Below, in pieces: positions 31,530 to 62,755 of a stretch of DNA of 64,000 nt. This DNA comes from Acetobacteraceae bacterium AT-5844 (GTDB lineage: Bacteria > Pseudomonadota > Alphaproteobacteria > Acetobacterales > Acetobacteraceae): contig JH600053.1 of assembly GCA_000245075.1 (NCBI GenBank), positions 17,753 to 81,752 on the forward strand, given 5' to 3'. The notes beneath the pieces are model-generated. The model had not been told where the DNA came from and made no database searches. It saw only the letters and a program-made list of their open reading frames with translations. A program made the position numbers and the translations under genes. The first letter of the stretch is position 1. Each line of letters opens with the position of its first letter.

Positions 31530-31594
31530 AGACCGGCCTCCAGAGCCGCAGTTTTCGGTTTCTTTTGTCGGGCTGGACGGGCACTCTGCACACC

Positions 31595-32653: not shown

Positions 32654-33615
32654 GCGGTAAGAGAGGAGTTGTCCGGCGGTGGGGGCGCCTGCCGCATCTG
32701 CCGGAGCGCGAGGGCCGCGAAGGGGTCTTTCCACCACCTCGGTGTCCGGCCCTTCGGTTCCTGTGCCAACCACTCCAGTACTCTCTGATCCGCCAGGGGG
32801 GGCAGAGCCGCGAAGCCGGCGGCAGGAGGAGGCAAGGTGCCGTCGTAGATGGCCGCGCGGACGGCGAGCCACTGTAGCCTTCCGCGTCCCTGCTGAAGCA
32901 ATCGGCGCCACAGTCTACGAGCATCGCGCCATCGCCAGGGCCGCAATGTGGGCCCGGTCCAGGTGGCTCGCGGTTCGACAACCACGCGTTCCCGCTGCCA
33001 TTTTCCGCCGAGGGCGTCCAGGTCGTGGAAGACGAGGGAACCAATCAGGCCGTCGCCGCGATACATGCCCAATGGCAGCCTCAGCCCTTGCTCTGCGAGC
33101 CGGTCCACAAACTGTCCGCGAAGGGCGAAGAGCGAACCGTGGAGGCCGCCATACCGCTGCATGTCATGGCGCAGGCGTGCCGCGCTGCGGCCGGTACTGG
33201 GCACGGCGGCTGCGCCATTGGCGCAGGGCGCCTCCTTGAGGGCGAGCGCCAGCAGTGCCAGGGCATCTGGGGCAACGGCGGCGTAGGCGTCCACGAAAAC
33301 ATAGGTCTCCGCGGGTGGCCTTACCACATGCAAGAACTGGTTGATGGCGTTGGACTTGTCAGCATGCGGGATGAGATAGACACGCCCCTGTAGGCCCGCT
33401 GCTCGCAGTCCCTCCATAGCGATGGCGGGTGACGCATCGGTCGTGCCATTCAGCAATACGGTGACGTCCATCACCCGGCCCCGCCCAGCCACGGCCAGCG
33501 CGGCGAGGCAGCGGCGCAGGAAGGCCGCCTCGTTGTAGCCAAACACCGCGACAGACCACTCGATAGTCTGTTGCTGTTGTTTAGCTGCCAGGGTTTGGGC
33601 GAGGGCGTGCATCAT
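32629..33615 (-). CDS. Glycosyltransferase family 2
   Basis: A 328-residue GT-A enzyme. After a short tail (MMHALAQTLAAKQQQQTIE) the fold begins WSVAVFGYNEAAFLRRCLAAL, with the nucleotide-binding LLNGTTDASPAIAME, and the DxD-like FVDAYAAVAPDAL. A later RGDGLIGSLVFHDLDALGG could provide the catalytic acid. Members transfer sugars from nucleotide donors at the inner membrane. The ATG shares an A with the stop of the Wzx gene (TAATG), so the two are translationally coupled. The open frame continues far upstream in the same frame but that part overlaps the flippase and is not real. Confidence 0.85.
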   Translation of the reverse strand: MMHALAQTLAAKQQQQTIEWSVAVFGYNEAAFLRRCLAALAVAGRGRVMDVTVLLNGTTDASPAIAMEGLRAAGLQGRVYLIPHADKSNAINQFLHVVRPPAETYVFVDAYAAVAPDALALLALALKEAPCANGAAAVPSTGRSAARLRHDMQRYGGLHGSLFALRGQFVDRLAEQGLRLPLGMYRGDGLIGSLVFHDLDALGGKWQRERVVVEPRATWTGPTLRPWRWRDARRLWRRLLQQGRGRLQWLAVRAAIYDGTLPPPAAGFAALPPLADQRVLEWLAQEPKGRTPRWWKDPFAALALRQMRQAPPPPDNSSLTAYLLMETA

Positions 33616-38533: not shown

Positions 38534-39739
38534 TCAGGGATGCGGAGAGGATTTGAGCCGGCTCCGTAGGGCGAGATACGGAGTCAAATGAATGCTGGAC
38601 CAGCCCCGCTGCGCGGGAGGCACCGCCACAAGTTGGTCGTAAAGGGCATGGAAGCCCTCGACCATGCGCTTCCCATCGAACTCCCGTGCGATTCGGGCGC
38701 GCGCGGCGGCGCCAAGCGCCGAACGTTGCGCCTCATTTTGGCTCAAAGCCGACAGGTGCAACGAGAGACTCTCGGAGAGGCTTTCCTCTGTTCCTTCCTC
38801 CACCAGAAGCCCCGTGACGCCATCCTCGATCACTTCCGTAACCCCGCCGCCGCGCACTCCTACGGCAGGCAGGCTGCAAAGGCCGGCTTCAGCAAAGACA
38901 AGGCCGAAGGTTTCCTTATAGGAAGCAAGGGCAAAGCAATCCACATCCGCATAGACGCTTGCCAGAGCCGGCCAGGAACCCGGCAGGTGCACGCGCTTCG
39001 AAAGGCCAAGTTCGCGCACACGCTGTTCCAGAGGTTCCCGTAGTTCCCCCTCTCCCAGGATCACCAAATGGGAGGTCTCCGACATGCGCGAAACTGCATC
39101 GATCAAGAGGTGGTGCCGCTTCCGGCTTATCAGCGAGCCCACCGCCAGGATCACGAAGGCGTCCTGGGGTATCTCCAGTCTTTCACGCAGGCCCTGCCCA
39201 GGGATGCCGAGGCGAGCGGCGTCCACGCCGTTGAGAATGACCTGTGTTCTGCCTGGCGGAATCCCGTCTTCGCGGAGCCCTGTCAGCGCATGCTGGGAGG
39301 CGCCAACAATGCGGTGGGCGAGGTGGAGCAGGCAGACATAGCGCGAGCGGGTCAGGTAGCTCGCATGCAGATGTACGACCAAAGGCAGCCTGAGACTGCG
39401 CGCGGCGGGCGCCAGCCACTGGCAGGGCGCCGCACTGTTGGCCTGCACCAACTCTACCTTCTCCTGCCGTATGAGCCGCCGTGCGTCGGATAGTAGCCGC
39501 GCAAAGCACCGTGGCGAGAAGCGAGGAGAAGAATAATCCAGAAAATACGCCATGGGAGAAACATGCGTGGCAATACCAAGCGCTTTTGCTTCTCTCGCCA
39601 TGGCCTCCGCATTGCACCACAGGACAGGGCGGATGCGACGCTTATCAAGGCCTGCGAGAAGATCGAGCAGAACACGCTCGCTCCCTCGAATCCAGTTTTC
39701 GCCGTAGTGTACGAACAGGACGGTGCGGCACGTTGTCAT
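38534..39739 (-). CDS. Glycosyltransferase family 4
   Basis: A 401-residue GT-B enzyme. It begins TVLFVHYGENWIRGSERVLL and contains VQANSAAPCQWLAPAARSLR, VILNGVDAARLG, ILAVGSLISRKRHHLLIDAV, VILGEGELREPLEQRV and a donor-binding region FALASYKETFGLVFAEAGL, where Glu and Glu eight residues apart fit the EX7E motif. The frame is open a long way upstream but that part overlaps the next gene; the ATG at 39739 fits. It follows the secreted-protein gene by 16 bases in the same operon and ends just before the AT-rich gap. Sugar specificity is unknown. Confidence 0.9.
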   Translation of the reverse strand: MTTCRTVLFVHYGENWIRGSERVLLDLLAGLDKRRIRPVLWCNAEAMAREAKALGIATHVSPMAYFLDYSSPRFSPRCFARLLSDARRLIRQEKVELVQANSAAPCQWLAPAARSLRLPLVVHLHASYLTRSRYVCLLHLAHRIVGASQHALTGLREDGIPPGRTQVILNGVDAARLGIPGQGLRERLEIPQDAFVILAVGSLISRKRHHLLIDAVSRMSETSHLVILGEGELREPLEQRVRELGLSKRVHLPGSWPALASVYADVDCFALASYKETFGLVFAEAGLCSLPAVGVRGGGVTEVIEDGVTGLLVEEGTEESLSESLSLHLSALSQNEAQRSALGAAARARIAREFDGKRMVEGFHALYDQLVAVPPAQRGWSSIHLTPYLALRSRLKSSPHP

Positions 39740-39755: not shown

Positions 39756-41849
39756 TCAGGTTGTACAGCGCCCGGCGGCGCGCGGTACGATATTAAAGAC
39801 GGGGTCGCGCCGAAAATCCTGCGGGCTGATGAAAGGCGCGCCGGACGCCGCCAGCCAGGCGTGGGCCGCCCTGGCCTCTCGTGTGCCAAGAATGTCGACA
39901 AGAGCTGCAAGCGATTGCAGGGCGAGCTGCGCATAGTCGCCGTCCGTCCTGCGCCAGCTGCCCGCATTCGAAAGCCCTCTGGCCCGCATGGCCTGGCCAG
40001 TTTCGGCCCAGCTACGTAACGGTATGGCTTCGCCGCGCACCTCTCTTGCTGCGATCAAATAAGCAACGCCGTCACGTGGGTCGAACCCCTTCGAGGCGGA
40101 GAGGAAGCGCCCGGCGAGGAAGTTGCTCATCCAGAGAAGGACTTCCCTGGCATCACCGTTGCCCCGGCGGGCGGCAGATGCGGCACTGGAGGCGAAATAG
40201 TCCTGCTGCCAGGGAGGCATGGTATTCGGTGTGCCATAGACGCCGGGGATGCAGCCTCGCAGTTCCCCTTGCTCGTTGGTCCAGGCTGGAATGCGTGAGC
40301 GCAGCCATGACCAGTTGCTCTCCGCGCAAGCACGGAAATAGGGCAGGTTCGGGTCATCCGCTGGAGTGGCCCAGGCTGCGTTGTCCAACTGGCGCATGGA
40401 CCAGGCCGCGCCGCGGACCTGATTTCCGCGCACGACATTCAGCCCTTCCGCCGGCCCCGAATTGGCCGGATGGCCCCGCGTATCGGGCCATTGCGACACC
40501 ACGCACCATGCGGCCTGAGCCTGCAACTCATCCAGAAACGCACGCCTTCCCGTCAGCAGGTAGGGGACAAAACTGAGATCGGGCTGATGCGCGGAATCCG
40601 GAACCCAGCCGGTATCGCTGGCAACGGGTTGCAAAAGGCCGCCAGGCGGCGGTCCACCGCGGGGGTCGGTCCACAGTCGCGGCCATCGCCGGGCATCCAG
40701 CCAACCTCCGCTGCCGCGCCCGCCAGAAACATCCCAGAAGTGCCAGGGAATGCTGCCAGCAGCTTCCGCCTGCCCGATGGCGAAAGCGGCGGCACGGAGG
40801 TCGCCCGTCATCAGCCAGATGGCCTGGGCTTGGGTGGCGGGGCCGATATCCGGTCGCCCGCCCGTCTGTGTCATGTCCTGAGTAACGCCCCGTGCGCCGA
40901 GGATGGCTCCCCAGCCAGGCGCCGCCACATTCGACGCCATACGTGAGAGGAGCGCGTCATCAACGCCTGTCGACACGTCATAGCGGGCTACCGCGCCCGT
41001 ATCCGCGAGGTATCCGGCGTCGTGGCGGATATGGGGAGGCGTGCCCTGGGCGCCGGTGGTGAAAAGACGACCCCAGGCGGTGTACTGCGCCTGCCGCGGA
41101 ATATCGAAGCGCCCGGCCTCCTGGCCATCGAGCAACAGCCTTGCGGAGTACCGTGCCGGGCCTCCGCCGCCACGCATGGCGATATCATTGCGGAACCAGA
41201 GATCCACAAGCAGCGCGCCATCGGCGTGTACGGCGACATCTGCCACCACGCGCAGCGAACTGACCCCGCCGGTCATGCGTGGCGGTACCCCTGCTTCCAG
41301 GCGGCCCTGCACGGCCAGCGGACCCGACTGCCAGAGCGTGCCCGTCAAGGCGCGGGGCAACAGATCGAGCTTCCAGACGCCGCCCGCCGCGCTCGCCACC
41401 TCCAGTATGGCCTGCCGCCCTTCCCAGGAGAGCGGAGATGCAGGCGCCTCCGGCTCTGCGGCCAGCAGCACCAGCGCGCGCTGTCGGGCCGATAGAGCGG
41501 GCGCCGCGAGGGCAATCTGGCCCAGCCGGACCGAACCATCCGGATGACGGTTGCGAATATCGAGTTGAACCCGGACTGGCTGGCCATTGCTGAGCCTTGC
41601 CACCAGCCCGCGGCCAGCGGGTACATCACCCGGGCGGAATGCCTGGCCAAAAACGACGACGGTGCCCGCCGGATTGCCGCGCCCTTCCAATACCAACCCG
41701 ACGATATCCCCCGGTCGCGCTGGGCAAGGCGGCCGCTGCTGGGATACCTGGGCCTGGGCACATCCAGCGGGAGAGAGGAGGCCACATAGGCCCAGAAGCG
41801 CTTGCCGCCGCCCCGGCCCTCTAGAGGGGGTTATTTTCTCGGCTGTCAC
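39756..41849 (-). CDS. Large secreted protein of unknown function in the exopolysaccharide operon
   Basis: A 697-residue protein with an N-terminal export signal (RRQALLGLCGLLSPAGCAQAQ); the Cys may be a lipobox but this is uncertain. The first 300 residues are beta-rich, with TVVVFGQAFRPGDVPAGRGL and RHPDGSVRLGQIAL, faintly like RIFT-barrel N-domains of sugar-degrading or rhamnogalacturonan-related enzymes. The remainder is helical with aromatic and acidic patches such as AESNWSWLRSRIPAW and IPWHFWDVSGGRGSGGWLDAR, suggesting an alpha-toroid fold. It is sandwiched in the operon between two glycosyltransferases and overlaps one by 4 bases. A polysaccharide lyase, hydrolase or binding protein is plausible; not proven. 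Confidence 0.6.
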   Translation of the reverse strand: MTAEKITPSRGPGRRQALLGLCGLLSPAGCAQAQVSQQRPPCPARPGDIVGLVLEGRGNPAGTVVVFGQAFRPGDVPAGRGLVARLSNGQPVRVQLDIRNRHPDGSVRLGQIALAAPALSARQRALVLLAAEPEAPASPLSWEGRQAILEVASAAGGVWKLDLLPRALTGTLWQSGPLAVQGRLEAGVPPRMTGGVSSLRVVADVAVHADGALLVDLWFRNDIAMRGGGGPARYSARLLLDGQEAGRFDIPRQAQYTAWGRLFTTGAQGTPPHIRHDAGYLADTGAVARYDVSTGVDDALLSRMASNVAAPGWGAILGARGVTQDMTQTGGRPDIGPATQAQAIWLMTGDLRAAAFAIGQAEAAGSIPWHFWDVSGGRGSGGWLDARRWPRLWTDPRGGPPPGGLLQPVASDTGWVPDSAHQPDLSFVPYLLTGRRAFLDELQAQAAWCVVSQWPDTRGHPANSGPAEGLNVVRGNQVRGAAWSMRQLDNAAWATPADDPNLPYFRACAESNWSWLRSRIPAWTNEQGELRGCIPGVYGTPNTMPPWQQDYFASSAASAARRGNGDAREVLLWMSNFLAGRFLSASKGFDPRDGVAYLIAAREVRGEAIPLRSWAETGQAMRARGLSNAGSWRRTDGDYAQLALQSLAALVDILGTREARAAHAWLAASGAPFISPQDFRRDPVFNIVPRAAGRCTT

Positions 41850-43051
41850 GACAGGACCTTGCGGAATAGCGCCAGCTGGCCGGCTGTCGTGTCGTCCCAG
41901 CTGAAGGTCTCGGCATATGCGCGCGTCGCCTCCCGGTCCGGCGGCGCGGCCAGCAGGCGGTCGATGGCTGCCGCCAGGGCTTCAGGTGTCGCTTCGTCAA
42001 CAACCAGCCCTGCCTCAACCCGGCTGACGGCCTCCCGGCTGCCCCAGGCAGGGGTTGTAACCACTGGCGTACCACAGGCCATGGCTTCAAGGAGGACATT
42101 GGCCCAGCCTTCCCGGCTCGAAGCCAATACAAGGACGTCGGCTGCGCCGTAATAGAGAGGAAGGCGCGTATGGGGCTGCGCGCCTTCCAGATGCACCCTG
42201 TCCTCAACGCCGAGGCTGCGGGCCAAGGCCTGCAGCGCATGCCGCTCTGGGCCCTCGCCGACGATCAGCAGCCTGCATGCGGGCAACTTGGCCAGGGCCT
42301 GGATGACCTTGTGATGGCCTTTTCGTTCTATCAGGTGCCCCACCGAAAGCAGTACCTTCGCTTCTCCAAGACCAAGGGCAGTACGTGCGTCGGCCCGTGA
42401 TTCGGGCGGCCGGAAGAGGTCGAGGTTTACGCCGTTCCGCAGCACTGTGACCTTGCCCGCCGGGGCACCCAGAGCGACCAACCCATCTTTGAGGCCGGTG
42501 CTGACGGCAATCAGCGCATCTGCTTCCTGGATCGTCCGGCGGATCGCGCGGCGCGGGATGCGGTAGCTCGGCAACTGGCTCGTATCGGAGCCTCGCGCCG
42601 TCACCACGACTGGTAGACCGAATTCCCGCCCGAGCCGGACCGCCGCTACGCCATCTGGGTAGAGGTAGTGGGCATCGATGGCATCGAAGCGCAACCCTTG
42701 CTCCAACATCCGCCGCAGAGCCGTTCGAGCGGCGTGATACAGACAGGCGGGGCCAGTCAGCATGCCGAGGCGTGGCGGCGCTGGAAAGGGTGGATGATGG
42801 ACGTCCAGCCCGTGCCGGTTTTCCCGCCGCGGGACGGCGGCATAACGCGCCCATGCCCCAAAATATGGCGACGTCCAAGGGAACCAAGGTACCGGCGCCA
42901 GTACGACGCTGGATACGTCACCGCTTGCGACCAGATGGCGCAGCCGATTTTCGACGAACACGCCATGATTGGGTTGGACGGCGTTGGGGAAGAGAGTGGT
43001 GAAGGTGAGCAGGCGGATGCGCCCGATTGCGCCATCCTTCTGTTGAAGCAT
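41846..43051 (-). CDS. Glycosyltransferase family 4
   Basis: A 401-residue GT-B enzyme. It begins RIRLLTFTTLFPNAVQPNHG, a start often seen in exosortase-A clusters, and has LVASGDVSSVVLAPVPWFPW, AIDAHYLYPDGVAAVRLG, VVTARGSDTSQL, VTVLRNGVNLDLFRPPESR, SVGHLIERKGHHKVIQAL, IVGEGPERHALQALA and LASSREGWANVLLEAMACGTPVV. The start is uncertain: ATG at 43051 (with GGAGG 12 bases upstream) or 43090. Both overlap a small membrane-protein frame. It is followed with a 4-base overlap by the large secreted protein. Confidence 0.88.
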   Translation of the reverse strand: MLQQKDGAIGRIRLLTFTTLFPNAVQPNHGVFVENRLRHLVASGDVSSVVLAPVPWFPWTSPYFGAWARYAAVPRRENRHGLDVHHPPFPAPPRLGMLTGPACLYHAARTALRRMLEQGLRFDAIDAHYLYPDGVAAVRLGREFGLPVVVTARGSDTSQLPSYRIPRRAIRRTIQEADALIAVSTGLKDGLVALGAPAGKVTVLRNGVNLDLFRPPESRADARTALGLGEAKVLLSVGHLIERKGHHKVIQALAKLPACRLLIVGEGPERHALQALARSLGVEDRVHLEGAQPHTRLPLYYGAADVLVLASSREGWANVLLEAMACGTPVVTTPAWGSREAVSRVEAGLVVDEATPEALAAAIDRLLAAPPDREATRAYAETFSWDDTTAGQLALFRKVLS

Positions 43052-43208
43052 GCCGGCGACGGTCCTCCGGCGGGGGGCCAGAGCGTTCATCTGTCGTTGG
43101 TTCCCGCATCTCGAAGGGGGACCAGAGCTGCGATATCGAGGTGACGGAACTCCACCATACCAGCCAGGTAATGCCGGCCAGCATGGCCAGGAAGTACAGG
43201 CTGTCCAT
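42918..43208 (-). CDS. Small membrane-anchored protein (96 residues)
   Basis: A 96-residue frame with an N-terminal membrane span (MDSLYFLAMLAGITWLVWW) followed by SPFEMREPTTDERS and a Pro/Arg-rich hydrophilic tail. CAAGGA lies 8 bases before the ATG. It sits between the ligase and a glycosyltransferase in the leftward operon and overlaps the glycosyltransferase start by about 134 bases in another frame, which is unusually long. Either the overlap is real, or a frameshift has lengthened the small frame. Position suggests a role with the polymer-assembly machinery; function unknown. Confidence 0.5.
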   Translation of the reverse strand: MDSLYFLAMLAGITWLVWWSSVTSISQLWSPFEMREPTTDERSGPPPEDRRRHASTEGWRNRAHPPAHLHHSLPQRRPTQSWRVRRKSAAPSGRKR

Positions 43209-43235
43209 GACGCGAATCCTTGCTGTGGAGAGTGA

Positions 43236-44564
43236 TCATGCACTTGCTCCCTTCGCCCAGGTCGGCCGCCAGTCCCGCGCACGGCGCCGCCAACCCAGCG
43301 TCGCTTCCTCCCGTGCTTGTTCGGTCGCCAGTGCGCGCCGCGCCAGGGCATGGGTCGCTGCAACGACGACCAGCAGTGTCCAGTAAAAGTCCCAGTACGA
43401 GAGAGAAAGGAACGTGCCGCTGACCATGTAGGCGATGATGGAAACCTGGGCCATGCGGCCAAGGTCGTGGGCCCAGGCAAGGTCGGGCCTGTTGCGCGTC
43501 ATACGCGCCAACCGCACGGAGAGGATCAGGCCGAATACAGTCAGGCCACACCAGAGCACGAAAGTCGGGAAGCCATGTTCGCCGAGTAGTTCGAACCAGA
43601 TACTATGGACGGCGCGGGCCGGCCCTTCAGGTGCCACCGTATCCACCACGGAGCGTGTGTAGGGGCCTGTAAAACCTGAACCGACCAAAGGCCGATCCTG
43701 TGCAAGTTTCAGCGAGATTCCCCAGAGCACAAGCCGTTCGGTAGCCGAGCCATCCTGCTGATAGGCTCCGATACTGTGCATCCGCTCCATCCACGCCTCT
43801 GGCATGAAGCTGACAGCGCCTGCCAGGCATATGGCCAGGACAGCGGCAGAAAGAATTTTACGTTTACTGCGAAGCCACATGACACCGCTAATGGCCACCA
43901 GCGCCAGCAAGGCGCCCCGGGAATAGCTGCCTACGGCGGCAAGCAGTGTCAGTACCAGGGCGATGAGCAGCACATTTCTGACGATGCGGTGGGCTGAATG
44001 CAGGCGCAGGTAGTGCATCAGCGGCATGGTTACCAGGAGCGCGGCGGCGAGGTGGTTGTTGTCGGTGATCATCGACTGATCCGGCCCCCACACGCGGTAA
44101 TTGCCGCCGGTGAGAACTGAGAAGATACCGCCGCGAACACCATAATATCCCAGTGAGATCACCATCACCCATATCAGGGCATGAACCCGCTTCCGCTCGG
44201 TCAGGAAGGCCGCGGTGAGGAGAAGCCCTGCCAGAACCTTCGTCACATGTTCCCATTTGGCCCAGACAGCGGGCGGGTCTCCGAGCGCGGCGAAGGTTGT
44301 CGCCGTGAAGCAGAGCATCAGTGCCAACAGAAGAATAGTGATCGGATTGAGTGGCAGTTTGCGCGGCTCGCCCGCCACAAGGCAGCCGATGAGCGTGGCG
44401 ACGAAAACCGCCATGGCCCAAGGTAGGTCCAAGGCCACGCCCCACACCAGGCGGTGGGGATTCATGAAAGAGATCCAGCACCACAGCAGAACGCCGGCAA
44501 ATGGGCGCAGCAGGGCCAGAGGCAGCAGCCCCATCATGGCCAGAACGAAGACCGCGTCGCGCAT
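43236..44564 (-). CDS. O-antigen-ligase-like protein, exosortase A-associated
   Basis: A 442-residue multispan inner-membrane protein. It begins RDAVFVLAMMGLLPLALLRP, with LLWCWISFMNPHRLVWGVAL, a motif typical of the exosortase-A-associated putative O-glycosylation ligase (TIGR03097-like). About ten hydrophobic segments and a large periplasmic loop (ERMHSIGAYQQDGSATERL, then GSGFTGPYTRS and HSIWFELLGEHGFPTFVLWC) are seen; that loop carries the conserved His of Wzy/WaaL folds. It probably polymerises or ligates lipid-linked glycan in the periplasm. It lies one base after the PrsT stop and is clearly co-transcribed. Confidence 0.92.
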   Translation of the reverse strand: MRDAVFVLAMMGLLPLALLRPFAGVLLWCWISFMNPHRLVWGVALDLPWAMAVFVATLIGCLVAGEPRKLPLNPITILLLALMLCFTATTFAALGDPPAVWAKWEHVTKVLAGLLLTAAFLTERKRVHALIWVMVISLGYYGVRGGIFSVLTGGNYRVWGPDQSMITDNNHLAAALLVTMPLMHYLRLHSAHRIVRNVLLIALVLTLLAAVGSYSRGALLALVAISGVMWLRSKRKILSAAVLAICLAGAVSFMPEAWMERMHSIGAYQQDGSATERLVLWGISLKLAQDRPLVGSGFTGPYTRSVVDTVAPEGPARAVHSIWFELLGEHGFPTFVLWCGLTVFGLILSVRLARMTRNRPDLAWAHDLGRMAQVSIIAYMVSGTFLSLSYWDFYWTLLVVVAATHALARRALATEQAREEATLGWRRRARDWRPTWAKGASA

Positions 44565-52164: not shown

Positions 52165-52507
52165 CGAAGGACCTCACGAGGGAGCGCTAGGAGCTTGATG
52201 CAGAATCGTTAGCATTGTTTCGGTTGGTCATGGAAGAGGATCAGTAATACAAAGTATTTTCCTTTAAGGAAAATCTCTGGACCTCCGTTATTTTCGCAGT
52301 CTTGGCGGGAAGTTTTTTTTCTTCAGAGTAGATATACTCTTGGCCGAGTCCGAAATTTTCCCGACATATATTTTTTGGTGAGGTGTAAATTGTAGATTGC
52401 AGGGGGCGGCTCATCTGTTAACGTCGGCACCAGGCCAGGCAGACGGGCCTCCGCACCGGCTGCTCACCCAAGTCCAACTGACCGTCAAGCGAAGCAAGGC
52501 CACACAG
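52165..52507. promoter_or_regulatory. Divergent promoter region with two palindromes
   Basis: 343 AT-rich bases between the leftward sugar transferase operon and the rightward export operon. ATTTTCCTT-T-AAGGAAAAT (52256-52274) is a perfect palindrome with 9-bp arms and a single central base. AGAGTA-GATA-TACTCT (52325-52340) is another exact one. Both lie between the divergent starts and could be operators for a common regulator. I looked for a GG-N10-GC sigma-54 site for PrsR on both strands and saw none convincing, so the promoter class is open. Confidence 0.55.
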
Positions 52508-53137
52508 ATGACCTCTCGTTTCATTGAAGTATCGTTTGGTTTGTTGTGCATTGCGGGATTGGCAGGCTGTGGCGGTGGCTCGCCGTCTTCCACGCTGCTG
52601 GCCCAAGAGACTGCTTCCGTGAATTCAGAATACGTCCTGGGGGCGGGGGACACGTTGAGCGTCTTCGTCTATCGCTCTCCCGAGCTCAGTGCGGCAGAAC
52701 TGCCTATCCGCCCGGATGGCCGACTGTCCTTGCCGCTGGTTCCGGATATCGAGGCCGCAGGACGTACACCGACCGAGCTCGCGAAGCATATCGAACAGCG
52801 CCTCAAGGAATACGTCCGTGACCCTCTGGTCACGGTCATGGTGCGCTCCTTCCAAGGGCCGCCGAGCCGCCAGATACGCGTCATCGGTGAAGCGACCCAG
52901 CCAATGGGCATGCCCTACCGCGAGGGGCAGACGGTACTTGATGTGATGATCGCCGCGAAGGGCCTTACCCGGTATGCCGCAGGCAACCGTGCGGAGATTA
53001 TTCGTCGAGAGAGGGACGATCTCCCCGCTACAGTCATCCCGGTTCGCCTGTCTGATCTGCTGAAGGACGGCGACATGTCGCAAGATATCCCGATGCGGCC
53101 GGGGGATACCTTGGTTATCCCTCAAGGGTGGTTCTGA
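52508..53137 (+). CDS. Wza-like exopolysaccharide export lipoprotein (PEP-CTERM type)
   Basis: A 209-residue outer-membrane polysaccharide export protein. A lipoprotein signal (FGLLCIAGLAGC, Cys21) anchors it; then the Poly_export domain YVLGAGDTLSVFVYRSPELS, IRPDGRLSLPLVPDIEAAGR, and two SLBB-like segments (VIGEATQPMGMPYREGQTV, LVIPQGWF). The domain order and length match the exosortase-A-associated export family (TIGR03027-like). It forms the outer-membrane passage for the polymer. The ATG at 52508 has AAGG 8 bases upstream; the frame is open earlier but lacks a start with a signal. It begins a rightward operon of ten genes. Confidence 0.93.
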   Translation: MTSRFIEVSFGLLCIAGLAGCGGGSPSSTLLAQETASVNSEYVLGAGDTLSVFVYRSPELSAAELPIRPDGRLSLPLVPDIEAAGRTPTELAKHIEQRLKEYVRDPLVTVMVRSFQGPPSRQIRVIGEATQPMGMPYREGQTVLDVMIAAKGLTRYAAGNRAEIIRRERDDLPATVIPVRLSDLLKDGDMSQDIPMRPGDTLVIPQGWF

Positions 53138-53140
53138 CCG

Positions 53141-54637
53141 ATGGACGTTCTTGCAGCGGTGCGGCGTTACGCCGCAGTCGGATGGCGGCAACGCTGGAAA
53201 GCACTGGCCGTAGGCTGGATCGTATGCCTGATGGGATGGGCCGGCGTGTATACCATTCCCAACCAATTTGAGTCCAGCGCCCGGATCTATGCCGACGCTG
53301 ACGCGGTCCTCGGCCTGCTCCTGAGAGGCATTGCCATAGACAGCTCGCCCGCCGGTCAGGTCGAAGTTCTGCAGCGCACGTTATTAAGCCGGCCAAACCT
53401 CGAGAAGGTCATTGTCCGGACGGATCTTGATCATCGCGTTCAGACCCCAGCCGAGCGCGATGCCCTGGTCCAAAGCCTTGCGCGAGATATTCGGATTACC
53501 CCTCAGACCCGGAATCTTTTCACGATCGAGTATAGGGACCGGGACCCGAAAGTGGCGCAGGCCGTTGTTCAGACAGCGCTGACCTTATTCATGGAAGCGG
53601 CCACCGCAACGGACCGCCAACAGATGGAGAGCGCACGAGTTTTCGTTGCGCAGCAGCTGGCCGCCTATGAGGTACAGCTTAGGCAGGCGGAGAGACGCAG
53701 AGCTGAGTTTCAGGCGCGATACATCGATCTGCTTCCGTCGGAAGCTCTTGGGGGCTCGTCTCGACTGGAAGCAGCGCGTGCGAGGCTAGCCCAGGTCCAA
53801 GGCGAACTTCAGGATGCGCGGATGCGGCGTAATCTAACGCAGCAGCAGATCGACGCCATTCCAGCACGTTTGCCCCAAGAGGCGAGGGGGGGCACCGGTG
53901 GCCGGCTAGCGGAAGCCGAGCGGGATCTCCGGGAGCTTCGGCTGCGTTATACAGAGCAGCATCCAGATGTCGCGGCGGCGCGTAGTGCGGTTGCTGCGCT
54001 GAGGAGTCAGGGAGGAGGTGGCCGCAGCGGAGCGGCACCTTCAGCACCGCGAGCAAATCCGCTCTATGAGACTCTGAAGGTACGCTTGGTCGATGTGGAT
54101 GCAGAGATTGCATCGCTTGAGCGCCAGGAGACCGACGGACGGGCCGAAGTTGATCGGCTTGACGCCATCGCCCGAGCGGAGCCTGAACTACAAGCACAGT
54201 TTCTCAACCTGGACAGAGACTATGCCGTGCTTCGCAAGAATTACGAAGAACTTCTGGCACGGCGAGAATCCATCCAGATCGCAGGAGCTGCCCGCACCAG
54301 TTCGGACCGCGTCAGGCTCGAGATCATTGACCCGCCGACCTTGCCGACGCGTCCCGCGGCTCCCAACAGGCCACTGCTGTTTTCGGCGGTCTTGGTCGCC
54401 GGACTAGGAGCGGCCCTGGCCGCGACAGTCGGCTTCGTACATCTCGATCAGACCTTTTACACAGTGCACGACCTCCGACGTCTGGGCCTCCCTGTTCTCG
54501 GGGGTGTATCGAGCATCACTCCTCGCAGGAATGCGGGCGCGGCTTTTCGGTTTGGGATGGGGGTTATCGCTCTGTTCGCCGCCTTTGGTGCCGTCCTGGC
54601 AGGTATGCCGGGTATGATCGTGAGGCTTTTCGCATGA
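53141..54637 (+). CDS. XrtA-system polysaccharide chain-length determinant (Wzz type)
   Basis: A 498-residue inner-membrane protein of the PEP-CTERM chain-length family (TIGR03007-like). It has an N-terminal membrane span near residue 25-40 (ALAVGWIVCLMGWAGVYTIP), a long coiled-coil periplasmic region (VRQAERRRAEFQARY-like, LAEAERDLRELRLRYTEQHP, ETDGRAEVDRLDAIAR) and a second span near the C-terminus (LLFSAVLVAGLGAALAATVG) preceded by Pro-rich PPTLPTRPAAPNRP. No kinase domain is attached; it partners the separate kinase-like ATPase whose gene overlaps by 4 bases. It sets polymer length and links the assembly to export. Confidence 0.93.
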   Translation: MDVLAAVRRYAAVGWRQRWKALAVGWIVCLMGWAGVYTIPNQFESSARIYADADAVLGLLLRGIAIDSSPAGQVEVLQRTLLSRPNLEKVIVRTDLDHRVQTPAERDALVQSLARDIRITPQTRNLFTIEYRDRDPKVAQAVVQTALTLFMEAATATDRQQMESARVFVAQQLAAYEVQLRQAERRRAEFQARYIDLLPSEALGGSSRLEAARARLAQVQGELQDARMRRNLTQQQIDAIPARLPQEARGGTGGRLAEAERDLRELRLRYTEQHPDVAAARSAVAALRSQGGGGRSGAAPSAPRANPLYETLKVRLVDVDAEIASLERQETDGRAEVDRLDAIARAEPELQAQFLNLDRDYAVLRKNYEELLARRESIQIAGAARTSSDRVRLEIIDPPTLPTRPAAPNRPLLFSAVLVAGLGAALAATVGFVHLDQTFYTVHDLRRLGLPVLGGVSSITPRRNAGAAFRFGMGVIALFAAFGAVLAGMPGMIVRLFA

Positions 54638-55476
54638 CCATCCCCATCCGTGATCGGGCTCATCTCGTTGAGCGCGCGGTCGAGGCGTTCGGATCTGCGC
54701 CGCCTTCGCCACCGCAGTCCCGCGTTCACAGCACTGAGAGGGAGACGAAGGGGCCGGCCATCCAGTTGGCGTCGCTGATCCGAGCGGGGCTGGTGGTACT
54801 ACCAAACCATCATCAGCGGAGCCGGGTCGCAGAGGAGATGACGGTCATCCAGCAGCAGGTCCTTCGCGGCATGGAGCAAAGCGAGTCCAGCCGGAACCGC
54901 TTCATCGTCGTGACGAGTGCCAGGCCCGGTGAAGGCAAGACTTTCATCGCCCTTAATCTGGCGGCCTGTATCTCCGCGAATACGGCATACAAGGTGGTGC
55001 TGGTCGACGCGGACGGAAAACGAGATTCAATTAGCCAGAAGCTGAGCTGTGGGGAGTTTCTTGGTCTTCGCTGGCTCACTGCACAGACGGGGGGCGTGTC
55101 GCCAATTCTGGATACCGAGGTTCAGAACCTCGGGTTCCTGCCGTATGGGCGGGGCGAGACCGACTCGCAGGCGGTCCCAGCAGGGTCGTTGATCGCAGCA
55201 TCGCTCTCGCGTCTGTCGCGTTCGTTGCCCCAGCACATTTTCATCGTCGACACTCCCCCCAGCCTTTCGACGAGCGACGCCAATGCCCTGTCGGCAATTG
55301 CGGGTCAGGTTGTCATGGTTGTCGACGCGGAGAAGACGCGGAGGAACGAGGTTGAGGCCGCTCTCGACATGATGGAAGCCTGCCCTCTCCTGCAGCTTTT
55401 ACTAAACAAGGTCGGCGTAACAGCAAACGACAGCTTCGGTGCCTACGGTCAGTATGGGGCTATTCATGCCGGCTGA
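54634..55476 (+). CDS. XrtA-system tyrosine-kinase-like ATPase (CpsD/Wzc C-domain type)
   Basis: A 280-residue cytoplasmic ATPase of the exosortase TyrK/CpsD family (TIGR03018-like). Walker A is in VVTSARPGEGKTFIALNLA, Walker A' in VVLVDADGKRDSI and Walker B in HIFIVDTPPSLSTSDANALS. The C-terminal tyrosine cluster of Wzc-type kinases is reduced to two Tyr (AYGQYGAIHAG). It likely works with the chain-length protein to control polymerisation. It overlaps that gene by 4 bases and the next by 11, if the barrel protein starts at 55466. Confidence 0.92.
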   Translation: MTIPIRDRAHLVERAVEAFGSAPPSPPQSRVHSTERETKGPAIQLASLIRAGLVVLPNHHQRSRVAEEMTVIQQQVLRGMEQSESSRNRFIVVTSARPGEGKTFIALNLAACISANTAYKVVLVDADGKRDSISQKLSCGEFLGLRWLTAQTGGVSPILDTEVQNLGFLPYGRGETDSQAVPAGSLIAASLSRLSRSLPQHIFIVDTPPSLSTSDANALSAIAGQVVMVVDAEKTRRNEVEAALDMMEACPLLQLLLNKVGVTANDSFGAYGQYGAIHAG

Positions 55477-57165: not shown

Positions 57166-58125
57166 ATGCATCTGGACCGATACGGGTTTCGCGAGCCGCC
57201 TTTCCAGATGACGCCGGATGCTCGCGTGTTTTTCCCCAGCACTGTCCACCGGCGAGCCTATGCCCATCTTATGTATGGCTTGGCGCAGAAAGAGGGCTTT
57301 GTCGTTGTCACAGGTGAAGTGGGGGCGGGGAAGACAACGCTCATAGAGCGTCTCTGTGGTGAACTGGATTCAGGCGGATTCGTTATTGCCCGGATTGTCA
57401 CCACGCAGGTCTCCGGCGATGACATTCTCCGCCTGGTGGCCCACGCTTTTGGGGCGCCGTCGGAGGGAACAAAGGCAGCGATCCTGCTAGGAATCACTGC
57501 CGTCCTCCGGCAAGGAGACCGGCGGCATCTCTTGATCATCGACGAGGCGCAGGCTCTCCCCCCGCAGGCGCTCGAGGAACTGCGGATGCTGTCCAACATC
57601 ACTGCGCCGGGTGAGGCGCCTCTGCAGACCATCTTGATGGGGCAGCCGCAGCTTCGGAGGCTGATGGGGCATCCGGATCTGTCGCAGCTTCGCCAGAGGG
57701 TGCTTGCCTCTTATCATCTTTCGGGCCTATCCCTCGAGGAAACACACGCCTATGTCGAGCACCGTTTGCGCGCTGTGGGATGGGCTGGAATTCCGTCTTG
57801 GGAGCCAGCGGCACTTGACATGGTGCACCGGTACAGTGGCGGAATTCCACGTCGTATCAACCGCCTTTGCTCTCGGGTCCTGCTGGGAGGAATGCTCGAC
57901 GGTAGTGACGTGATGACAGGTGAATTGGTCGAGGCGACGGCCCTCGAGCTGGAGGAGGATCTCGGATCACCCTTCGATCTGGAGGCGGCGAGGTCGCCCG
58001 TCGAGGACGAGACGCTTGAGAAACTATCGCTTCGGATAGATGCGCTCGAGAGGCTCGTGGCGCGACGGGAGCGGGTGTTCGCTCGAATCTCCGATCTTTT
58101 TACCTCGGGCGACAGGGGGCGTTGA
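57166..58125 (+). CDS. XrtA-associated secretion ATPase (ExeA-like)
   Basis: A 319-residue AAA ATPase. It starts MHLDRYGFREPPFQMTPDAR with Walker A GEVGAGKTT at residues 50-58, Walker B LLIIDEAQALPPQALEELRM, sensor-1 TILMGQPQLRRLM and the arginine-rich end YSGGIPRRINRLCSRVLLGG, matching the ExeA/GspA-like exosortase-A ATPase family (TIGR03015-like). The tail has a short coiled-coil (LEKLSLRIDALERLVARRE). It is thought to power assembly of the envelope export complex. AGGAGG lies close before the ATG. It starts 11 bases after the barrel gene. Confidence 0.93.
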   Translation: MHLDRYGFREPPFQMTPDARVFFPSTVHRRAYAHLMYGLAQKEGFVVVTGEVGAGKTTLIERLCGELDSGGFVIARIVTTQVSGDDILRLVAHAFGAPSEGTKAAILLGITAVLRQGDRRHLLIIDEAQALPPQALEELRMLSNITAPGEAPLQTILMGQPQLRRLMGHPDLSQLRQRVLASYHLSGLSLEETHAYVEHRLRAVGWAGIPSWEPAALDMVHRYSGGIPRRINRLCSRVLLGGMLDGSDVMTGELVEATALELEEDLGSPFDLEAARSPVEDETLEKLSLRIDALERLVARRERVFARISDLFTSGDRGR

Positions 58126-58126
58126 C

Positions 58127-58990
58127 ATGGTCCGCAACGCGATGAGTGTGGATGTAGAGGATTGGTTTCAGGTCCAGGCCTTTGCCGATGTGATTCGCCG
58201 GGAGGACTGGGACGGGCTTGATTCTCGTGTTGTGCCAAACACTGAAAACGTCCTCGGCCTGTTATCTGAGTACAATGTGAAGGCGACGTTCTTTGTTCTC
58301 GGGTGGGTGGCAGACCGCTATCCGCAGCTTGTCCGTTCCATCGGTGGCGCGGGCCATGAGGTGGCCAGTCACGGATACGGGCATGAGCTGGTCAGCCATA
58401 TCGGTCCTGAGCGGTTCCAGCAGGATATCCGGCGTGCAAAGCAGAGGTTAGAGGACTGTTCCGGACAACGCGTCGTGGGGTACAGGGCTCCAACCTTTTC
58501 GATAGGAGAAGCCGAGAGCAGCTGGGCATACTCTATACTCGGGGAAGAAGGATACCTCTACAGCTCGTCCATATTTCCCATAAGCCATGACCTCTACGGT
58601 TCTCCTCAGGCTCCTCGGCGGCCGCACCGGCCCAAGGAAGAAGCCGTTCTCGAGATCCCAATGACAACCGTGAAATTGGGACAGCGAAATTGGCCCTGCT
58701 CCGGCGGAGGGTGGTTCAGGATACTACCTTACGCGCCATTCAGAGCCGGAATACGGCACGTTAACGGTGCTGAAGGAGAGCCAGCGATTTTCTATTTCCA
58801 CCCCTGGGAGATCGATCCTGGTCAGCCGCGCGTGCGCCAGGCGAGTAGATTCTCGCAGTTCCGTCACTATACTGGCCTTGATCGAATGCGGAATCGTCTG
58901 AGGCGACTTCTAAAGGAATTTGATTGGGGTCGCATGGACGAGGTTTTTGCCAGAGATATACGAGGCCATGCGGAGGCGGACATAAGATGA
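58127..58990 (+). CDS. XrtA-system polysaccharide deacetylase
   Basis: A 287-residue NodB-fold deacetylase of the DUF3473/PEP-CTERM family (TIGR03006-like). Near the start is MSVDVEDWFQVQAF with the metal-binding Asp pair; then NVKATFFVLGWVADRYPQLV, the HxxxH metal ligands in EVASHGYGHELVSH, RVVGYRAPTFSIG and the late FYFHPWEIDPGQPRV. It likely removes N-acetyl groups from the polymer. The ATG at 58127 follows the ATPase stop by one base; a second ATG five codons later is also possible. It overlaps the FemAB gene by 4 bases. Confidence 0.94.
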   Translation: MVRNAMSVDVEDWFQVQAFADVIRREDWDGLDSRVVPNTENVLGLLSEYNVKATFFVLGWVADRYPQLVRSIGGAGHEVASHGYGHELVSHIGPERFQQDIRRAKQRLEDCSGQRVVGYRAPTFSIGEAESSWAYSILGEEGYLYSSSIFPISHDLYGSPQAPRRPHRPKEEAVLEIPMTTVKLGQRNWPCSGGGWFRILPYAPFRAGIRHVNGAEGEPAIFYFHPWEIDPGQPRVRQASRFSQFRHYTGLDRMRNRLRRLLKEFDWGRMDEVFARDIRGHAEADIR

Positions 58991-60021
58991 GTATACGCCT
59001 GCGCGAGATGCGATACGTTGATGAAGGGGCTTGGGACAGCTTCGTGAATCGCCATTCCCAGGCAACGTTCTTTCACCTGTCCCCATGGAGGCGGGCGATC
59101 GAAGATGTCTTCGGGCACAAGGCGCATTATCTACTGGCGGAGCAGGATGGCGACATCGTGGGTGTACTGCCGCTTGCCAGGATGAAGACCCGGCTGTTCG
59201 GCGATGCTTTGATATCGACGCCGTTTTGCGTTTACGGTGGCCCGTTGACGACTTCGCCTGAAGCCGACGCGGCGCTCGAGCGACATGCCTTGGAACTTCT
59301 TGCCCGCCTGGGCTCGTCGAGTGTTGAGCTACGTAATCTTCATGCGCCATGGATGAACTGGGGCGTCCGCGAAAGTCTATATTATACCTTCAGGAAGCCC
59401 ATGACAGGTGTGGCCGACGCCGATATGAAGGCCATCCCGCGGAAGCAACGAGCCATGGTGCGGAAGGCCGTCCAGCTTGGCTTGAAGTCGACCGCGAACT
59501 CGGACACAAGAGCGCTTTACCGCGTCTATGCCGAAAGCGTCCGCAATCTGGGAACGCCGGTCTTTTCGAAAAAATACTTTGAATATATTAGCCACGCTTT
59601 TCCTGGGATGTTCGATGTTATGATCGTACATGAAGGGGAGGAGGCTGTAGCTGCGGTTCTCAACTTCTATTTTAGAGATGAGGTTCTCCCGTATTACGGA
59701 GGTGGAACCCGGCGGGCGCGGCAAGTCGCGGCAAATGATTTTATGTATTGGGAGGTGATGCGCCGGGCGGGGTCGGAGCGAGGGTGCCGTTTGTTTGATT
59801 TTGGTCGGAGCAAGATTAACACTGGAGCGTTCGACTTCAAAAAGAACTGGGGTTTCAGCCCCGCCCCACTTCACTACTGCTACAGGCTTAGGCCTGGCGC
59901 TAAGCTCGCCGAGAATAATCCTAATAATCCAAAGTACAGATTGCTTATATCTGCTTGGAGGCATCTCCCTCTTCCTGTGGCCAACTTGCTGGGCCCACCA
60001 ATAGTTCGGGGGTTGGGATAA
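58987..60021 (+). CDS. XrtA-system FemAB-like protein
   Basis: A 344-residue protein of the exosortase-A FemAB family (TIGR03019-like). Landmarks are FVNRHSQATFFHLSPWRRAI, GHKAHYLLAEQDGDIVGVLP, FCVYGGPLTTSP, the FemAB signature KAIPRKQRAMVRKAVQLGL, LNFYFRDEVLPYYGGGTRR, and the closing FDFGRSKINTGAFDFKKNWG. Such proteins transfer an acyl or aminoacyl group onto a glycan or glycan precursor in the cytoplasm. ATG overlaps the deacetylase stop (ATGA). A sugar-transferase gene follows after 5 bases. Confidence 0.94.
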   Translation: MSIRLREMRYVDEGAWDSFVNRHSQATFFHLSPWRRAIEDVFGHKAHYLLAEQDGDIVGVLPLARMKTRLFGDALISTPFCVYGGPLTTSPEADAALERHALELLARLGSSSVELRNLHAPWMNWGVRESLYYTFRKPMTGVADADMKAIPRKQRAMVRKAVQLGLKSTANSDTRALYRVYAESVRNLGTPVFSKKYFEYISHAFPGMFDVMIVHEGEEAVAAVLNFYFRDEVLPYYGGGTRRARQVAANDFMYWEVMRRAGSERGCRLFDFGRSKINTGAFDFKKNWGFSPAPLHYCYRLRPGAKLAENNPNNPKYRLLISAWRHLPLPVANLLGPPIVRGLG

Positions 60022-60026
60022 AATCC

Positions 60027-61277
60027 ATGCCGAATCTTCTTTTCCTTTGCCACCGTATTCCATATCCTCCCGACAAAGGAGACAAGATCCGGGCCTGGAA
60101 TATCTTGAATCATCTCTCCAAGCAGTGGGAGATCGACCTTGGATGCCTGATCGATGATGCGGCCGATATCCAACACGTCCCGTTTTTAAAGAGTCGATGC
60201 CGGTCGGTAGGGGCTTTCCGAATGAATTCGCGGCTGTCGCTCTGGTTCCAGACGCTGCGCAGGATGAAGCCAGGCCAGCCCCTGAGTGTTGGATGGTTTC
60301 ACGACCCGGCCCTATGGAACTGGGTCAATGAGCGGATCTCTACGCGGCACTACGATGCGGTTTACGCCTTTTCGGCTGCCATGGCACCGTATCTGGTTGG
60401 GCCAAATCATCCCGGCCGCTCATGCCGCCGAATTCTGGATATGGTAGACGTGGATTCGGAGAAATGGTCGGAGTATGCGAAGAACTCCTCATCGCCAATG
60501 AAGTTCGTATGGAGGCGGGAAGGTAGAACCTTGCTCGCTTTCGAGCGATGGGCGGCGAGGCAGTTCGATCTCTGTACTTTCGTGTCGACAAAGGAAAGAG
60601 ACCGCTTCGGCCAGCTGGCGCCTGAAGCCGATGAGTATATCGACTGGGTGGAAAATGGGGTGGACATGGTCTACTTCAGCCCTGATCGGCAGTATGAGAA
60701 CCCTTACCGCGCCGGCGGGCCGGCCATTGTGTTTACCGGTACAATGGACTATCGGCCGAACGTGGAGGCTGTGACCTGGTTTGCAACTGAGGTTATGCCT
60801 CTTCTGCGCAAGCGGGCAGGAAAATACTCACCCACGTTCCACATCGTTGGCGCAAAGCCGGCCCGTTCTGTGTCCGAATTGGCGCAGATGCCGGGTGTTT
60901 ATGTGACCGGCGCTGTTCCAGATGTTCGTCCATATCTCGCGCATGCAGATGTCGCTGTAGCACCATTGATGATTGCTCGGGGCATTCAGAATAAAGTGCT
61001 TGAGGCGATGGCGCTCGGACGGCCGGTCGTTGCATCGTCCGCTGCTTTTGAAGGCGTGCGGGCGCGGCCCGGCCTTGATGTTCTGGTGGCGGACGGGGCA
61101 GTCGATACCGCCAGAGCTGTCGATGAAGTTCTGGATGGGAAATGGGGCGGGTTAGGCGCTGCGGCGCGCAGCACCATGTTGGCGAATTACCAGTGGTCGT
61201 CGACGCTGGCGCGTCTGGACGCGATGCTGGCAACAAATCGAGACGGCCAGGCGCCGGCTCTTGGAGCGGTCGCGTGA
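60027..61277 (+). CDS. XrtA-system sugar transferase (Stp1 family)
   Basis: A 416-residue GT-B glycosyltransferase of the PEP-CTERM/EpsH1-associated family (TIGR03087-like). The diagnostic start is LLFLCHRIPYPPDKGDKIRA with WNILNHL. Further landmarks are GCLIDDAADIQHVPFLKSRC, DAVYAFSAAMAPYLV, LDMVDVDSEKWSEYA, VENGVDMVYFSPDRQ, VFTGTMDYRPNVEAVTWFA and APLMIARGIQNKVLEAMALG. It probably adds a sugar to the lipid-linked repeat. ATG at 60027 follows the FemAB stop by 5 bases; the longer upstream frame is out of place. The next gene's GTG overlaps its stop by 4 bases. Confidence 0.94.
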   Translation: MPNLLFLCHRIPYPPDKGDKIRAWNILNHLSKQWEIDLGCLIDDAADIQHVPFLKSRCRSVGAFRMNSRLSLWFQTLRRMKPGQPLSVGWFHDPALWNWVNERISTRHYDAVYAFSAAMAPYLVGPNHPGRSCRRILDMVDVDSEKWSEYAKNSSSPMKFVWRREGRTLLAFERWAARQFDLCTFVSTKERDRFGQLAPEADEYIDWVENGVDMVYFSPDRQYENPYRAGGPAIVFTGTMDYRPNVEAVTWFATEVMPLLRKRAGKYSPTFHIVGAKPARSVSELAQMPGVYVTGAVPDVRPYLAHADVAVAPLMIARGIQNKVLEAMALGRPVVASSAAFEGVRARPGLDVLVADGAVDTARAVDEVLDGKWGGLGAAARSTMLANYQWSSTLARLDAMLATNRDGQAPALGAVA

Positions 61278-62755
61278 GTTCCGCTCAATTTGCGCCGGCA
61301 TTGCCTGCCACGAGAGGTGTGACATGGCTGCGCGCAGTTTGTGCGATGTGCATGGCTTTGTTCGTTATTGGCTTTGCTTTTTTTGATGAGATCGAGGCCG
61401 CGTTGCGGACTTGGGATAGCTCTACAGCGTACAATCATTGCTGGTTAGTACTTCCGGTGGCGGGTTGGCTGGCATGGTCTCGCAGAGACCGGTTGAAGGC
61501 CATAAGGCCTGAGCCATGGCCCGCCGGCACTTTCGGTGTAGCAGCGGCCGCGATAGCGTGGGTGGCAGCCGAACGACTGGGAATTATGGAGGGGCGTCAG
61601 CTGGCCGTGATCGGGATGGTGTGGGCGCTGGTACTTTCAGTGTTCGGTTGGCCCTTCGTCAAGGCCATGGCCGCGCCGCTGTCTTACCTGGTGTTCCTTG
61701 TGCCGTTTGGTGAGTTCATGGTGCCATCCCTGCAACGGTGGACTGCATGGTTCATCGTCGGGGGCCTGAATGTTCTGGGTATCCCTAACTATCACGATGA
61801 TCTTGTCATTGAGATTCCCGCTGGATCTTTTCTCGTAGCCGAAGCCTGTGCAGGTCTGCGCTTCATGGTTGCGGCTTTGGCCTTTGGCGCTTTGTATGCT
61901 TTCACGATGTTCCAAAGCCCTTGGCGCAGGGTAGCGGTCATGGCATTGGCCGTGATTGTGCCTCTCGTTGCCAATGGAGCGCGTGCGCTTGGTATCGTGC
62001 TGCTCGGGCATTATGTCGGGAATGCAGAGGCTGCTGCGGCTGATCATGTGGTCTACGGCTGGGTATTCTTTTCCGTCGTAATTCTCTTGTTAGTTCTGGT
62101 GGGGATGCCTTTCCGGGAGGACCGCGACCGCGCTCTGGTCATCTTGTCAGCTTACCCGGGAAGTCAGCGAGGCATGGCGTCGCTGGTGAGTTCCGCCCTA
62201 TTATGCAGTATGCTGGCGGTAGGCGCGCCGGCCTTCGCCCATATTCTGGATAGCGGCGAACCGCCTACCACCTTGCCGTTCCAGCTGTCGCTGGCGGGGG
62301 GATGCGGGAGTGGATCGAACGAGGCAGTCGATCGGTGTGAAAATGCGGTGGTGACGGCGAGCTTGGTGGTGTTTTCGCCGAGGACGACCTGGGCGAAGGT
62401 GTCAGCCGAGCGCCGAAAACTCATGATTCAGAGCGATGAGGCCCTGACCTTTAGCATAGCCACCGACGGCGCTGTGTGGCACGCCCGGCAGGATCGCGAC
62501 GGAGGAACCGTTGTTGCCCTTGCCTCCTGGTTGAACGGTCGTCCAGCTGGGGATGGCCTGCGCAGCCGGCTCGTCCAGGCGCTCAACAGCCTATTTGGGG
62601 GCAGGGGCCAGCCTGTCATTGGGGTTGTCGCGGTACAGCCTGGGGTAAGCATCACGAATGCGGCGGCCCAGCAGCGGTATCGCGCCTGGATACGGAAGCT
62701 GGTGGAAGCGGGCGCAACCTCTATGACGACGGAGGGCTTGGCCCTTTCACGCTAA
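61274..62755 (+). CDS. xrtA: Exosortase A with EpsI-like C-terminal domain
   Basis: A 493-residue inner-membrane transpeptidase-like protease. Residues 1-290 contain about eight hydrophobic spans. The exosortase triad is present: Cys192 in VAEACAGLRFMVAAL, Arg237 in VANGARALGIVLLG, His258 in DHVVYGWVFF. This type removes PEP-CTERM tails and anchors the proteins. Residues about 315-493 are an EpsI-like domain with one span then a periplasmic region (TTWAKVSAERRKLMIQSDE, VWHARQDRDGGTVVALASW). In many bacteria EpsI is a separate gene; here it is fused. The GTG at 61274 overlaps the upstream stop. No PEP-CTERM substrate lies nearby. Confidence 0.95.
   Translation: MSSAQFAPALPATRGVTWLRAVCAMCMALFVIGFAFFDEIEAALRTWDSSTAYNHCWLVLPVAGWLAWSRRDRLKAIRPEPWPAGTFGVAAAAIAWVAAERLGIMEGRQLAVIGMVWALVLSVFGWPFVKAMAAPLSYLVFLVPFGEFMVPSLQRWTAWFIVGGLNVLGIPNYHDDLVIEIPAGSFLVAEACAGLRFMVAALAFGALYAFTMFQSPWRRVAVMALAVIVPLVANGARALGIVLLGHYVGNAEAAAADHVVYGWVFFSVVILLLVLVGMPFREDRDRALVILSAYPGSQRGMASLVSSALLCSMLAVGAPAFAHILDSGEPPTTLPFQLSLAGGCGSGSNEAVDRCENAVVTASLVVFSPRTTWAKVSAERRKLMIQSDEALTFSIATDGAVWHARQDRDGGTVVALASWLNGRPAGDGLRSRLVQALNSLFGGRGQPVIGVVAVQPGVSITNAAAQQRYRAWIRKLVEAGATSMTTEGLALSR

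Follow-up and report, generated by a model that had tools for sequence, protein, structure and literature searches.

To our knowledge, exosortase A (XrtA) loci are common among environmental Proteobacteria, yet few of the polymers that belong to them have a known chemistry. The window studied here, which is the whole stretch of 64,000 nucleotides that was analysed, holds a complete XrtA exopolysaccharide locus. Among its glycosyltransferase genes lies one for a 697-residue protein with an apparent export signal. What does such a protein do in the middle of a locus for polymer synthesis? We consider it probable that the product of this gene is an exported enzyme that cuts the exopolysaccharide of the surrounding locus. 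Below we set out the evidence for this reading, and the other roles that the protein could have.

The gene and its exosortase A locus

The gene occupies 39756..41849 on the minus strand and begins with a GTG codon. As the initial annotation had described, it is tightly packed between two glycosyltransferase genes: a 4-nt overlap (GTGA) joins its start codon to the TGA of the upstream gene, and its own TGA lies exactly 16 nt before the ATG (39739) at which the downstream one begins. Full-length homologs, 35-71% identical, are found across dozens of genomes, therefore this is not a chance open reading frame. The downstream neighbour is a GT4 glycosyltransferase (38534..39739, minus strand). On the other side, and also on the minus strand, lie a GT4 glycosyltransferase reading frame (41846..43480), the listed start of which is perhaps too early, the XrtA-system O-ligase (TIGR03097; 43236..44564), the TPR protein PrsT (TIGR02917; 44566..47352) and the regulators PrsR and PrsK (TIGR02915 and TIGR02916; 47370..50827). 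The plus strand carries the export protein, chain-length determinant and tyrosine autokinase (52397..55476), followed by the XrtA polysaccharide deacetylase, FemAB, the stp1 glycosyltransferase and exosortase A (58040..62755). A priming transferase, an outer membrane protein and an ATPase are also present, with the priming transferase, the kinase and the ATPase scoring below the curated cut-offs of their models. The XrtA/PEP-CTERM assignment is based on finding exosortase A, PrsK/PrsR, PrsT, the O-ligase and the export and chain-length genes in one region.

Two further reading frames of this locus deserve a mention. A 461-aa frame at 31526-32911 (minus strand) has zero Pfam or NCBIfam matches and has homologs of about 30% identity in several related loci; it is another unnamed component of the locus. 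A coding stretch of about 320 aa (32629-33614, minus strand), located between the flippase and this frame, likewise has homologs in related loci.

That the 697-aa protein is exported, as the initial annotation had proposed, is upheld by inspection of its N-terminus. Judged by eye, residues 1 to about 34 (41748..41849, minus strand) form a signal of the twin-arginine type (GRRQALLG...AQA), with an RR pair, a hydrophobic stretch and AQA. When 29 operon-type relatives were checked with a simple pattern, at least 24 had the RR and the hydrophobic stretch. We rejected a lipoprotein reading, as the PAGC of this protein is not a good lipobox; LAGC is present in a few relatives.

The protein matches no named NCBIfam family, which agrees with the earlier view that it is not one of the standard XrtA-locus families, and searches of PDB sequences with the single sequence or with a profile found no relative. 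Homologs are present in 35 of 200 genomes from the same taxonomic family and in 10 of 289 genomes sampled across the class. The hosts are mainly Acetobacteraceae/Roseomonadaceae, with further examples in Acidiphilium, Reyranella, Elioraea and Skermanella. An XrtA O-ligase above the cut-off occurs in 31 of the 35 genomes with the gene family and in 38 of the 165 without it (Fisher p 3e-13, kinship ignored), and neither occurs in three other members of the genus of the window's species. Within the operon clade the gene adjoins XrtA-locus genes in 28 of 30 members, the window included, and in other alphaproteobacterial families it again lies near XrtA regulators (L170-L173). The proposed tie to an exopolysaccharide locus is supported by both this neighbourhood and this co-occurrence. 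The initial annotation took presence in organisms without any such locus as evidence against its proposal. Four of the 35 genomes (G012, G097, G137 and G147), all of them multi-contig drafts, have no O-ligase above the cut-off, and in Skermanella one copy is found on a plasmid, away from any locus of this kind; the remaining 31 genomes do have the ligase.

One irregular copy was seen in genome G088, whose XrtA operon holds the family gene in three different frames (L060:8474-10839); the copy may be defective, or the sequence may contain an error. This genome has a second, longer copy.

Predicted fold and its relation to PL26

The AlphaFold model covers residues 39-697 (pLDDT 95.5, pTM 0.95). 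It consists of roughly 237 residues of strands (residues 39-275; 41025..41735, minus strand) followed by an alpha/alpha toroid, the putative catalytic domain (residues 276-697; 39759..41024, minus strand). The beta-rich N-terminal domain and helical C-terminal part that had been suspected from the sequence are thus both seen in the model. The suspected faint likeness to RIFT-barrel lyase domains is real, albeit below the cut-off: residues 59-119 (41493..41675, minus strand) match PcRGLX_1st with an E of 0.0018 and 18.5 bits, against a Pfam cut-off of 22.1. This is the sole match of the protein in the curated libraries. The same weak match is found in 39 of 72 relatives, some of which exceed the cut-off (e.g. 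L075), and a paralog from the window's own genome scores 20.2 bits, or 24.1 in a six-frame search.

When the model was compared with the PDB using Foldseek, six chains had an E < 0.001, and all are PcRGLX, an exo-rhamnogalacturonan lyase of polysaccharide lyase family PL26 (E 6.5e-7 to 3e-5). The best of these has a probability of 1.00, yet a TM-score of about 0.3 and an rmsd of about 15 Å; the agreement with PL26 therefore concerns the order and type of the parts, and is not a tight superposition. PL26 (PcRGLX, PDB 5xqg; Pfam PF19501, PF21345 and PF21346) shares with our protein a RIFT-type domain, a further beta domain and an alpha/alpha toroid, in this order. The toroid modelled on its own has no significant match in the PDB: the search gave only generic alpha/alpha barrels, the highest-ranking of which included weak hits to GH76, GH88 and GH105 enzymes.

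Membership of PL26 itself was rejected. The domains PcRGLX_2nd (beta-sandwich) and PcRGLX_3rd (toroid) are absent from 72 of 72 members at an E of 1, and a profile comparison with true PL26 aligns just 54 columns, in the RIFT domain alone. In contrast, all three PcRGLX domains are found with E below 1e-100 in true PL26 proteins of other genomes, one of which also matches 5xq3 very strongly. The proteins also differ in size, with about 660 residues here and about 880 in PL26, and the gene described here sits in a synthesis locus. Because the toroid alone has no significant match and is not recognisably related, we regard the family as a new, PL26-like one. The predicted structure of the 697-aa protein has the build of a PL26-type enzyme, and the protein may work as such an enzyme does. 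The earlier label of an unknown fold class needs to be revised: the predicted fold resembles PL26, although there is no clear match to one known family. In the literature library that was searched, no paper dealt with PcRGLX, or with PL26 as part of exopolysaccharide loci.

An alignment of 26 bacterial and phage members identifies a conserved set of residues, all within the toroid. R332, H421, R479, W483 and R486 are invariant (26/26), D334 is found in 25 of 26 members and D550 in 21 of 23. R332 and D334 belong to a GGRxDIG motif (codons at 40848..40856), H421 to HQPDLS (40587..40589), the residues from R479 to R486 to VRGxAWxLR (40392..40415) and D550 to PWQQD (40200..40202), all on the minus strand. 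Judging from the sequence, the arginines and the histidine would suit a lyase, and a hydrolase is also conceivable given D334 and D550.

Short, long and phage-borne forms

Operon-type members are short (about 700 aa), begin with the export signal and end directly after the toroid. The other, long members have about 850-1800 aa and are mostly without a visible signal at the start; among 15 that were scanned, seven have RTX repeats and five have CBM60. A tree places the operon-type members in a single clade of 30 with a support of 100. Across the entire tree there are five switches between the short and long labels, which means that the two forms do not correspond to one clade each, and a few of the rows labelled short are contig-truncated. 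Many genomes pair a signal-bearing form with a signal-less one. The window's genome has both, the second being a 918-aa paralog on contig C104, 47% identical, which carries CBM60 and not RTX and lies away from the XrtA locus. Type I secretion genes would be expected beside every long form, but HlyB/HlyD genes were seen near the family gene at a few loci only (L151, L110, L118 and L172), and the window's own genome has one HlyD gene above the cut-off. The opposite arrangement to that of the Acetobacteraceae long form occurs in other alphaproteobacterial families: in L171, L172, L173 and L174 an N-terminal extension of at least several hundred residues precedes the family domain.

Homologs are also encoded by phages. 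The protein gp39 of EBPR siphovirus 1 is homologous over nearly the whole length (profile E 3.5e-89), and its gene (JF412302.1:18511-20850; L204:11026-13365) adjoins an annotated glycosyl hydrolase gene. In IMG/VR, 24 contigs have relatives that are up to 50% identical, and a scan of viral contigs based on gp39 gave no matches. The viral contigs L205-L214 carry homologs of the toroid; in L205-L212 the toroid is kept and the N-terminal part has no match to the family. In L210, a baseplate wedge gene lies a few genes upstream and a lipase/esterase gene immediately upstream. Only this contig is firm as a tail module, since the phage copies tested have no PHROGs family and most neighbouring genes in L205 and L211 are without a named function. 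The setting in L210 recalls that of tail-borne capsule and exopolysaccharide depolymerases. Most known capsule depolymerases are beta-helical, whereas here the phage protein is an alpha/alpha toroid with an exchanged N-terminal part.

Proposed role and its alternatives

Several lines of evidence point to a depolymerase: the only significant fold matches are lyase chains, the gene is fixed beside XrtA-locus genes and co-occurs with the XrtA O-ligase, long paralogs carry RTX or the carbohydrate-binding CBM60, and phage homologs keep the toroid with its invariant polar set. Counting against it are the low TM-score to PL26, the lack of a significant match for the toroid, the short 54-column profile overlap, the plasmid copy outside exopolysaccharide loci and the position of the long form of this genome away from the locus. 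There are also precedents. Sinorhizobium meliloti has two depolymerases for succinoglycan, ExoK and ExsH, one of which is secreted by a type I system (PMC1403797), and the alginate lyase AlgL of Pseudomonas aeruginosa is coded in the polymer synthesis locus and acts in the periplasm (PMC8829089). The pairing of a signal-bearing form with a signal-less, often RTX-bearing one resembles ExoK and ExsH; unlike these, the two forms here have a single, unrelated fold in common, and neighbouring type I secretion genes were found at only a few loci. AlgL may, by analogy, be a model for the short form, although it belongs to another polymer and system.

In the mechanism that we propose, a Tat- or Sec-type signal would take the short form into the periplasm, and the toroid of this form, which follows the beta-rich part with the RIFT-related domain, would carry the active site. 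R332, D334, H421, R479, R486 and D550 may bind the polymer backbone and cleave it; beta-elimination at a uronic acid would be the most likely reaction. The operon-borne form could trim the polymer or clear misrouted polymer during synthesis, as AlgL does. The long paralog, with RTX or CBM60 and no signal peptide, would act outside on the mature polymer. Such a division of labour would be that of ExoK and ExsH on succinoglycan.

The same role could be filled with a different chemistry, if the toroid were a glycoside hydrolase using carboxylates such as D334 and D550. Both are nearly invariant, and the toroid-only search places GH76, GH88 and GH105 near the top; yet none of these matches is significant, and once the beta part is included the only significant matches are to a lyase family, which makes a hydrolase unlikely in our view. 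Lyases and C5-epimerases have a common chemistry, so an enzyme that modifies the polymer without cutting it, e.g. a uronic acid C5-epimerase, also has to be weighed. A periplasmic and RTX-bearing pair would recall AlgG and AlgE, some long forms do have RTX repeats, and a glucuronyl C5-epimerase is among the weak toroid matches. That match is not significant, however, and the phage copies, one of them in a tail module, favour depolymerisation, leaving an epimerase improbable.

That phages hold on to enzymes for opening the surface polymers of their hosts also argues for depolymerisation over a role in binding or export. A non-catalytic protein that binds the polymer or assists the secretion machinery would fit a gene inside a synthesis operon, coupled to a glycosyltransferase, and the CBM60 of some relatives. 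Nevertheless, the invariant Arg/His set is retained by phage copies in which the N-terminal part has been replaced, and neither the secreted long forms nor those of phages would have any part in export. We therefore think this very improbable; the export factor suggested by the initial annotation finds no support, and a pure binding protein is disfavoured. Least credible of all is that the enzyme scavenges polysaccharides of foreign, plant origin and is in the locus by chance. PL26 does act on plant rhamnogalacturonan and CBM60 is described as xylan-binding, but the place of the gene in the synthesis operon is fixed, it overlaps the preceding glycosyltransferase gene, and it co-occurs with XrtA genes.

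The family is a recurrent, unnamed, enzyme-like component of XrtA loci, and no NCBIfam model naming a depolymerase in such loci matched in this analysis. Locus-encoded exopolysaccharide depolymerases are already known as a kind, of which a PL26-like family in XrtA loci would be a new variant, as far as sequence and predicted structure can tell. More tentatively, we propose as quite possible a new polysaccharide lyase family, remotely PL26-like and recurring in exosortase A loci, that forms a periplasmic and extracellular pair cutting the cell's own polymer, has moved between bacteria and phages as a depolymerase borne on the tail, and is matched in Gammaproteobacteria by a more remote PL26-like protein in loci of this type. 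If the protein is a depolymerase, it offers a reagent to identify the XrtA-locus polymer and to disperse such biofilms, and a large unnamed family with extracellular and phage versions becomes linked to a directly testable function.

The gammaproteobacterial proteins have about 830-915 aa and a PcRGLX_1st domain above or near the cut-off. Over the toroid they are not detectably of the same family, and using them as a bridge did not lengthen the alignment. They are found in XrtA-type loci, including L201 (7196-9805), L202 (8439-10934) and L240, and in three genomes (L239, L241 and L242) they directly adjoin an exosortase A homolog. These proteins may represent a parallel PL26-like solution.
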